Part shown: positions 27,924 to 33,960 of the stretch, piece by piece
Numbering within the stretch: position 1 is the stretch's first letter
Layout: each line of letters starts with the position of its first letter
Origin: Candidatus Dojkabacteria bacterium
Lineage (GTDB): Bacteria; Patescibacteriota; Dojkabacteria; JAHIVN01
Assembly (NCBI GenBank): GCA_016932045.1
Contig: JAFGDO010000019.1
Span: 1-48,895 of the forward strand
Reading direction: 5' to 3'
DNA: 48,895 nucleotides
Program-made: the position numbers and the translations under genes
The notes under the pieces: model-generated
Seen by the model: the letters and a program-made list of their open reading frames with translations, nothing else
Told to the model about the DNA's origin: nothing
Database searches by the model: none

Positions 27924-28011
27924 GGAAGGGTGGCGGAGTGGTCGAACGCGCTGACTTGGAGAGTCAGTGTCCGCCATTGGCGGACCGTGGGTTCAAATCC
28001 CACCCCTTCCG
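27924..28011 (+). tRNA. tRNA-Ser (anticodon GGA)
   Basis: The acceptor stem GGAAGGG pairs with CCCTTCC, with G as discriminator. The anticodon stem CTGAC/GTCAG encloses TTGGAGA, giving anticodon GGA. A long variable arm (GTCCGCC-ATT-GGCGGAC) marks it as class II serine tRNA. The T-arm is GTGGG-TTCAAAT-CCCAC. CCA is not encoded. A palindromic repeat doublet begins at the next base. Confidence 0.97.
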
Positions 28012-28171
28012 TACTTCTACAAGCTCAGTGCGGAGTGCTTGAGGCTGTCGAAGTATTGAAAGTATAAGATGAGAACCCGTAGGGTTCGCTCAACCTGCCT
28101 GACTGCATCACGCAGGCAGGTGAGACCTTGGATTTTTCAATCCTGAGAAAATCGAAGGAGAAGAAAAATCC
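28012..28171. repeat. Cluster of palindromic elements after tRNA-Ser
   Basis: Three inverted repeats follow the tRNA. The first (28014-28053) pairs CTTCTACAAGCTCA with TTGAGGCTGTCGAAG. The second (28089-28124) pairs CTCAACCTGCCTG with CAGGCAGGTGAG. The third (28130-28171) pairs GGATTTTTC with GAAAAATCC. The first two are the REP-like classes seen at the other tRNAs. The rest of the 413-bp gap up to 28424 shows no gene and no RNA that I recognise. Confidence 0.7.
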
Positions 28172-28424
28172 ATAGTCGAATTAGTCCGCCGTAAGCGGGA
28201 ATCCCTGTCTCTCCGCTCTACGAAAAACTTTGAACTTTAGTTCTGAGATTGTTACAGGTTAGTTTAAACAGATGACCTATCCTCTATAAAATAAAAAGAA
28301 TTTTCACTCCTCGAGCCATCCTGAATGTTAAAAAATGATCTATCCCATATCCATTGATCATTATTCCTATCATTTGTCGTTTATGTTAGTATTTTATAAT
28401 TAGATTTTTTATCAACTATCACTC

Positions 28425-33549: not shown

Positions 33550-33644
33550 ATAAGCAATAGAAAACTTTGAGTACAATCTAATATAATATTTTTACAATAA
33601 TTTCACAATTGCATATTGATCATTGTATAATTGAGAATTGAAAT

Positions 33645-33678
33645 GCGGGAACGTCTCCTTCGACAAGCTCAGGACAAG
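33645..33678 (+). pseudogene. tRNA-Gln 5' half with a palindrome in the D-loop
   Basis: GCGGGAACGTCT (33645-33656) matches the 5' end of the intact tRNA-Gln 95 bp downstream with one change. Then CCTTCGACAAGCTCAGG (33657-33673) takes the place of the D-loop. ACAAG (33674-33678) resumes the tRNA sequence after the D-stem. The anticodon arm is missing. It is a tRNA remnant joined to a REP-like palindrome at the D-loop. Confidence 0.75.
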
Positions 33679-33739
33679 TATTGTAAAGCGTAAAATTGCA
33701 TCAAATAAGCAATTTTAGTATAAAGTTAAAACGAAAGAT

Positions 33740-33810
33740 TGCGGGATCGTCTAATGGTAGGACAAGCGCCTCTGAAGCGCTCGATCTTGGTTCGAATCCA
33801 AGTCCCGCAA
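33740..33810 (+). tRNA. tRNA-Gln (anticodon CTG)
   Basis: The acceptor stem TGCGGGA pairs with TCCCGCA, with A as discriminator. The anticodon stem AGCGC/GCGCT encloses CTCTGAA, giving anticodon CTG. The T-arm is CTTGG-TTCGAAT-CCAAG. The weak T1-A72 pair is typical of tRNA-Gln. CCA is not encoded. Remnants of this tRNA lie on both sides (5' half at 33645, 3' tail at 33890). Confidence 0.94.
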
Positions 33811-33812
33811 TG

Positions 33813-33960
33813 GTTCGATAAACTCACCATAGGTGAGTTCGTTGAACTATCTTCTTGGATGAGAAGTTTACCCTGAACGGAGTTGAAGGGAATCCAAGTC
33901 CCGCAATTCGACTCATTCAGCCTTGCTGAACTCGCTCGTTCGACTGAGCTTGTCGAAGTC
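33813..33960. repeat. Palindromes and a tRNA-Gln 3' tail copy
   Basis: Directly after tRNA-Gln is a hairpin with AACTCACC/GGTGAGTT (33821-33839) and outer GTTC/GAAC pairs. Next comes the REP-like CCCTGAACGGAGTTGAAGGG (33871-33890). It runs into GAATCCAAGTCCCGCAA (33890-33906), an exact copy of the T-loop, T-stem and acceptor 3' strand of tRNA-Gln. Further REP-like motifs follow (GACTGAGCTTGTCGAAG near 33938). The junction lies in the T-loop position. Confidence 0.75.

Follow-up and report, generated by a model that had tools for sequence, protein, structure and literature searches.

Small dispersed palindromes are known as REP/RAYT elements and as Rickettsia palindromic elements. At the E. 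coli tyrT locus, 178-bp repeats each start with a copy of the tRNA 3′ end; to our knowledge, these repeats come with no nuclease, no 5′ halves and no loop palindromes. Mitochondrial nuclease open reading frames (ORFs), such as that of Allomyces atp6, interrupt a gene and bring with them a replacement end for it. Among the nucleases themselves, SLX1 cuts branched DNA.

In phages, free-standing GIY-YIG homing endonucleases of the SegB type adjoin tRNA genes with no intron, and the published account implicates SegB in breaks in tRNA-containing DNA and in the recombination of the 5′ part of a tRNA with neighbouring sequence (PMC13096335). The rRNA genes of CPR bacteria hold insertion sequences, some encoding GIY-YIG proteins, that fall outside the group I and group II introns; short ORF-less insertions exist as well, and most insertions lie at the top or the base of rRNA stem-loops (PMC11270868). 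Within the open-licence PMC literature, we found no account of tRNA halves with loop palindromes, nor of chromosomal GIY-YIG genes with broken or regenerated tRNAs.

The window analyzed here is a whole contig of 48,895 nucleotides from Candidatus Dojkabacteria bacterium (contig C26 of genome G000, an assembly of 1.46 Mb in 32 contigs with 47 tRNA matches). A sequence-only reading of this window had claimed that a tRNA-Gln gene is flanked on both sides by its own fragments joined to palindromes. This arrangement is real, and it is one case of a wider pattern that, judging from sequence comparison, was probably produced by homing elements without introns, which would invade tRNA genes and restore them.

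Results

The tRNA-Gln locus

At positions 33644-33907 of the window, all on the + strand, an intact tRNA-Gln (CTG) has a 5′ copy of itself upstream and a 3′ copy downstream. The intact gene occupies 33740-33810 (ARAGORN, 33739-33811; Rfam tRNA, 33740-33810, 64 bits); the other features were read from the sequence unless a search is named. Upstream, tRNA positions 1-13 recur at 33644-33656 with 12/13 identical residues (TGCGGGAACGTCT), followed at 33657-33673 by a REP-like palindrome, CCTTCGACAAGCTCAGG, which replaces the D-loop (sequence and REP 16-mer searches), and at 33672-33678 by GGACAAG. As GGACAAG represents the D-stem 3′ strand of tRNA-Gln and onward, the D-stem (GTCT/GGAC) has been kept around the palindrome, with the D-loop AATGGTA swapped for CCTTCGACAAGCTCA.

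Downstream of the intact gene, a long palindrome composed of two REP-like halves face to face (TGGTTCGATAAACTCACC ATA GGTGAGTTCGTTGAACTA, 33811-33849) is followed by TCTTGG at 33853-33858, by the palindrome CCCTGAACGGAGTTGAAGGG at 33871-33890 and, at 33890-33907, by the 3′ piece of the tRNA (GAATCCAAGTCCCGCAAT), which a repeat search identified as a copy of 33794-33811. The sequence-only reading had described this piece as a 17-base copy of the 3′ tail beginning in the T-loop, directly after a palindrome. An exact copy does follow the palindrome, although its length is 18 nt, and the palindrome does sit in the T-loop of the downstream broken copy, but TCTTGG had been overlooked. As TCTTGG is the 5′ strand of the T-stem, though at only 6 nt weak by itself, the downstream T-stem has also been kept and the loop alone replaced. 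More REP-like palindromes follow between 33907 and 33960 (sequence and REP searches), including a REP 16-mer on the − strand at 33943-33958.

With up to 3 mismatches allowed, CTTCGACAAGCTCAG occurs 5 times in the window, compared to 0.83 expected occurrences (0/100 shuffles reached 5), and these occurrences adjoin all three tRNAs of the window. The tRNA-Pro locus, also on the + strand, has the same design as the tRNA-Gln locus, with an exact 5′ piece of tRNA positions 1-13 at 46-58 (fragment search) and then the palindrome CCCTTCGACATGCTCAGGG at 58-76 upstream of the intact tRNA-Pro (TGG) at 142-215 (ARAGORN, Rfam). The intact tRNA-Ser (GGA) at 27924-28011 on the + strand (ARAGORN, Rfam) is accompanied at 28080-28216, on the same strand, by the T-arm of a broken tRNA-Ser copy, recognized by eye, in which GGGTTCG is followed by the element “E” (CTCAA..GTCGAATTAGTCCGCCGTAAGCGG) in the T-loop and then by GAATCCCTGTCTCTCCGC. 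By eye, this T-arm is closer to another tRNA-Ser of the genome than to tRNA-Ser(GGA).

Searches of the window contig with Pfam and with the A1 nuclease profile described below yielded no GIY-YIG match, and hence no nuclease gene at the tRNA-Gln locus. Because the window locus lacks this gene, which makes sense of the layout, the sequence-only reading did without it. From the sequence, the locus is best read as an ORF-less form of a mobile element that would live in tRNA genes, and it presumably carried a nuclease gene in the past.

tRNA fragments in three related genomes

Fragments were surveyed at 44 tRNAs of the window genome (three partial matches being left out) and at 44 and 48 tRNAs of two genomes of the same family, G001 and G002, for a total of 136 tRNAs and 269 flanks. 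Using a spliced alignment that allows inserts, with a score of at least 12 and the reversed tRNA as control, a piece of the neighbouring tRNA was detected in 63/269 flanks, compared to 1/269 in the control. A fragment was present on either side of 53/136 tRNAs (21/44, 18/44 and 14/48 in the respective genomes). A looser search with cheap gaps, which at a score of 12 gave 144/269 flanks and 113/269 in the control, was dropped. Upstream pieces retained the 5′ acceptor end in 32/39 cases, and downstream pieces the 3′ end in 24/30.

The earlier claim that breakpoints fall at the apices of tRNA hairpins held when counted genome-wide: of 38 internal junctions, the D, anticodon and T loops proper hold 30 (baseline 0.40, p=1.1e-6), and 36 are accounted for once the closing pairs of these loops are included (p=1.9e-9), with some junctions, like some rows of the tree below, being non-independent through the sampling of near relatives. 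When repeats of the same anticodon and junction were merged, 26/33 junctions remained in loops and 31/33 in a loop or closing pair. The 38 internal junctions were distributed over the T-loop (14), the D-loop (10), the anticodon loop (6), the closing pair of the D-loop (6) and other places (2). The outer ends of the upstream pieces are less tidy (n=39; anticodon loop 14, D-stem 9, D-loop 6), and downstream pieces start in the anticodon loop in 7 cases and in the T-loop in 5 (n=30).

At one locus (L037, G000:C8:74429-74568), an intact tRNA is enclosed by the remains of another tRNA; the acceptor strands of the latter, GCCGATG and CATCGGC, still match each other, and a 3′ half scores as a tRNA at 29 bits. 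In four tRNA leaders of the window genome (C11:13445, C23:67744, C30:82101 and C2:25888), GCTCTTTAAA or GTTCTTTT was seen by eye between an E-bearing fragment and the intact tRNA, a motif that resembles boxA.

GIY-YIG genes beside tRNA genes

At many such loci, the window locus not among them, a GIY-YIG gene of ~90 residues lies between the broken and the intact tRNA copy. A Pfam search of G000, G001 and G002 yielded 26 GIY-YIG matches, 20 of which remained once three UvrC and three YhbQ-like proteins had been set aside. All 20 of these nuclease genes are on the strand of a tRNA or tmRNA, 18 of them less than 500 nt from an intact tRNA, one beside the tmRNA and one, by eye, beside a broken tRNA-Ser copy; several tRNA, tmRNA and rRNA assignments in this work were likewise made by eye, beyond the results of Rfam and ARAGORN. 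The nuclease gene is present at only a minority of the tRNA loci of the three genomes, and many fragments may therefore have another origin. One of the YhbQ-like genes set aside as unlinked (L111, G000:C2:87069-87287) lies ~155 nt downstream of the tmRNA on the same strand.

The full form of the proposed element consists, on one strand, of a broken tRNA half with its native flank, a GIY-YIG gene of ~90 residues and an intact copy of the same tRNA, arranged either as 5′ half, nuclease and intact tRNA (layout A) or as intact tRNA, nuclease and 3′ half (layout B). The layout A ORF terminates either inside the intact tRNA or no more than a few dozen bases away from it. At five loci (L119, L120, L122, L129 and L131), the nuclease ORFs continue into the intact tRNA and acquire tails such as GRSSAGRAVGS; the annotated C-termini of such ORFs may be translated tRNA and should be treated with caution. 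Upstream of a tRNA-Gly, a nuclease copy with an internal stop (L124, G000:C20:26608-26817) indicates that decaying copies exist beside open ones.

The nuclease proteins are about 80-95 residues long. Three linked proteins and one Flavobacterium copy scored 52.7-65.0 bits against Pfam GIY-YIG (cut-off 22.6), and the catalytic residues Y5, G18, R26, H30 and E62 are invariant in 13/13 sequences. A Pfam scan of five proteins detected no separate DNA-binding module, returning GIY-YIG and one overlapping weak T5orf172 match, and Rfam, run on the window and on seven nuclease loci, matched no intron family. The closest solved relatives of the A1 profile, which was built from 13 linked nucleases, are UPF0213 (1zg2, 1ywl) and SLX1.

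The nuclease tree and its hosts

The A1 profile had matches in 30/85 genomes of the class. Outside the family there were 64 matches; 28 of them have a tRNA or tmRNA no more than 400 nt away on their own strand, and 2 have one antisense to them. A tree of 72 GIY proteins was constructed from these 64, after dropping matches shorter than 60 residues and adding 14 proteins of the family itself. One clade of 40 (98/82 support) contains 36 rows within 400 nt of a tRNA or tmRNA, and its four others lie downstream of the tmRNA (L221), inside 23S rRNA (L205 and L206) and, by eye, next to a broken tRNA-Leu (L195). The 32 rows outside the clade include no member with a tRNA or tmRNA up to 400 nt away on its own strand. 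On this tree, 21 changes of isotype label were counted, compared to a shuffled mean of 28.9 (0/300 shuffles as low), and the Met, Asp and Ser(GCT) nuclease groups span families, the same target being shared by distant hosts.

Named GTDB genomes were then searched with the Asp-linked group, yielding 155 relatives, of which 80 were kept. A tRNA lies within 400 nt on the same strand in 63/80 and antisense in none, and the 17 relatives without a tRNA inside 400 nt include some cut by contig ends. Their hosts comprise CPR phyla, Bacteroidota (cultured Flavobacterium and Polaribacter), Ignavibacteria, Chloroflexi, Margulisbacteria and others. Across the ORF from the intact tRNA, 48/62 testable loci contain a stretch of 11 nt or more from the same tRNA, compared to 0/62 with the reversed tRNA; the 14 loci in which this longest-piece search gave no piece of at least 11 nt were scored as misses.

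In 39/48 loci, the piece has within 50 nt a hairpin whose 5′ arm contains CCG (in most cases TCCCG..CGGGA or TTCCG..CGGAA), compared to 27/960 control windows elsewhere in the same loci; at several loci this hairpin takes the place of the anticodon arm. A test for plain 6-bp hairpins was weaker than the CCG test (34/44 vs 149/880), and 5/44 inner-edge windows held no hairpin of at least 5 bp.

In Flavobacterium, matches are patchy, occurring in 24/61 genomes and sometimes in tandem, and the nuclease copies have a median dN/dS of 0.058 over 36 pairs, which represents strong purifying selection. One region of the Flavobacterium group (G104:C15:199468-200458) carries three tandem nuclease genes inside 1 kb that are 84-86% identical to the query.

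Filled and empty sites

The genomes G001 and G002 have flanks in common at many tRNAs. At tRNA-iMet, with positions counted on the tRNA, -817 to -313 of G001 corresponds to -468 to +34 of G002, and -6 to 79 of G001 to -6 to 79 of G002. The empty G002 site extends from the flank to tRNA position 34; in G001, this same stretch leads into a palindrome, then the nuclease gene and finally the complete tRNA, preceded by six leader bases. Similar differences between filled and empty sites in the two genomes, with or without an ORF, were observed for Ile(TAT), Cys, Leu(CAA) and Asp. A difference of this kind is what repair-mediated copying from an occupied allele would predict.

Palindromes and other inserts

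The inserts belong to several families, namely 19-nt and 30-nt TCCGCC palindromes, a CCTGCC palindrome, the REP CTTCGACAAGCTCAGG and the element E (~70-110 nt), which recurs in the upstream leaders of several tRNAs. An exact match to the E motif in genome G023 was discarded; it lies in a tRNA-free stretch and looked like chance. Hairpins formed by the inserts are not always strong (z < -2 in 20/33, against mononucleotide shuffles). At tRNA-Lys(TTT), the three species carry three different inserts at an identical point of the T-loop, and at tRNA-Gln(CTG) their D-loop inserts differ.

The sequence-only reading had tied the palindromes to tRNAs and held that they should not occur equally next to other sequence. 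The genome contains 27 REP-like 16-mers when up to 2 mismatches are allowed, and 14 of them have a tRNA no more than 300 nt away, compared to 0.51 expected, in agreement with that reading, but the other 13 lie elsewhere; the palindromes are thus strongly enriched at tRNAs and not confined to them. By eye, some of the 13 distant copies are in protein-coding stretches, and two are at the RNase P RNA gene. REP-like palindromes apparently within protein-coding stretches were seen by eye at L001, L002 and L006 near position 1500, a situation that we consider comparable to Rickettsia palindromic elements. The RNase P RNA gene (L005, 1468-2066 on the − strand, 599 nt, near 95.5 kb of G000:C31) shows several REP-like palindromes in alignment; it was found by E-value, at 61.3 bits, which is below the gathering score of 100. 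Matches to the Y1_Tnp transposase were present in all three genomes, with four in G000, such that the 27 16-mers are dispersed palindromes in a genome that also has Y1 transposase matches, as in REP/RAYT systems. Palindromes are found without a tRNA nearby (13/27) and inside the RNase P RNA gene, and so are not tied to the nuclease. We infer that they are REP-like units with a mobility of their own, which insert into the loops of structured-RNA genes; within a tRNA, they would be bearable by broken copies only.

Discussion

In an alternative account, the palindromes are the sole mobile agent. Under this account, Y1 (RAYT-like) transposases would move REP-like units into hairpin loops, ordinary recombination would produce the partial duplications of tRNAs, and the GIY-YIG genes would be passengers that also prefer RNA genes. 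The Y1_Tnp matches, the palindromes that occur within the RNase P RNA gene and, as judged by eye, within coding sequence, and the three different inserts at one point of tRNA-Lys(TTT) are all in keeping with it. It nevertheless predicts neither a single nuclease clade tied to RNA genes nor a broken half of the same tRNA across the ORF in 48/62 loci, and we judge it unlikely. Separately mobile palindromes leave unexplained the recurrence of a CCG..CGG hairpin at the break across phyla, which is the best clue to a working part.

The stems of the D-arm and T-arm being kept with their loops swapped, the recurrence of element E in tRNA leaders and the recurrence of CCG..CGG hairpins across phyla might instead suggest that the broken copies are functional RNAs, a tRNA-like leader and trailer guiding processing or regulating an operon. 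Many tRNAs do without such copies, as a fragment was detected at 53/136; fragments are also absent at some orthologous tRNAs of the sister species, and inserts at the same point vary between species, all of which makes this role very doubtful. Even less probable is that the copies are scars of classical site-specific integration, in which an integrase-type element duplicated the end of the tRNA as attL/attR and then decayed. The direct repetition of 18 nt from the tRNA 3′ end and the regenerated intact tRNA do, in our view, resemble attachment-site duplications, but the copies are 96 nt apart with palindromes between them, 5′ halves are as common as 3′ halves, and the recurrent linked gene encodes a GIY-YIG protein and not an integrase. 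Chance similarity or an assembly artefact, to which the several contigs of the window assembly ending in tRNAs or tRNA repeats might point, can scarcely be credited given the control counts (63/269 vs 1/269, 48/62 vs 0/62 and 39/48 vs 27/960) and the presence of the pattern in independent assemblies and isolate genomes.

We therefore favour the homing element that rebuilds its tRNA. In its putative cycle, the nuclease would cut an unoccupied tRNA gene, and repair from an occupied allele would bring in the nuclease gene along with a regenerated tRNA, the broken half and the intact copy serving as homology arms. Since the presumed target is still present in the intact tRNA, an assumption is needed for the occupied allele to be resistant. 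The broken half has palindromes in the loop of its D, anticodon or T arm, and across phyla a hairpin with a CCG..CGG stem often takes the place of its anticodon arm. Such palindromes may persist because they disable the broken half as a target for cutting or as a misfolding partner of the intact tRNA. A further idea, which we regard as a long shot, is that the minimal GIY-YIG nuclease, having no DNA-binding domain, takes its target from the shape of the nucleic acid or from its own broken tRNA. The half-tRNA, with a CCG..CGG hairpin substituting for the anticodon arm, would then be a functional component, either through the hairpin as a mark recognized by the nuclease or as a transcript leading the nuclease to the matching tRNA gene; if true, this would constitute a new, very small and possibly RNA-guided homing system across many bacterial phyla.

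If the homing reading is right, then small GIY-YIG genes would, as a large class, turn out to be mobile elements that inhabit tRNA, tmRNA and rRNA genes, odd tRNA fragments would be the footprints of mobile elements, and the invasion of an essential single-copy tRNA by a selfish gene that rebuilds it would become testable. As cultured Flavobacterium carry the full form, such testing does not depend on uncultured bacteria.

Comparison with known systems

Among the relatives of the nuclease, the YhbQ-like or UPF0213-like rows differ in falling outside the RNA-gene clade, and the cutting of branched DNA by SLX1 would fit hairpin or cruciform targets. The Allomyces atp6 system is similar in that an invading nuclease ORF restores the gene that it interrupts, with the difference that an organelle protein gene is involved there and bacterial RNA genes are involved here. 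E. coli tyrT shares the repetition of the tRNA 3′ end downstream of the gene. The palindromes described here adjoin tRNAs and also occur within the RNase P RNA gene and, as judged by eye, within coding sequence. By description they are like the REP/RAYT and Rickettsia palindromic elements, and they differ from them in filling the loops of broken halves of tRNAs, with an intact tRNA alongside.

The insertions of CPR rRNA genes find a parallel in the two clade members inside 23S rRNA. In contrast to the present elements, which regenerate the interrupted gene alongside, those insertions are published for rRNA, in a report whose main text does not contain the word tRNA (PMC11270868).

Phage SegB likewise has a GIY-YIG gene next to tRNA genes without an intron. 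Because no separate DNA-binding module was found in the Pfam scan of five proteins, we would not place the present elements with I-TevI or SegB; SegB is presumably also larger than these nucleases of ~90 residues. Unlike SegB, the elements reside in bacterial chromosomes, with nuclease clades tied to their own isotype, and across the ORF they have a broken half of the tRNA, along with hairpins in its loops.
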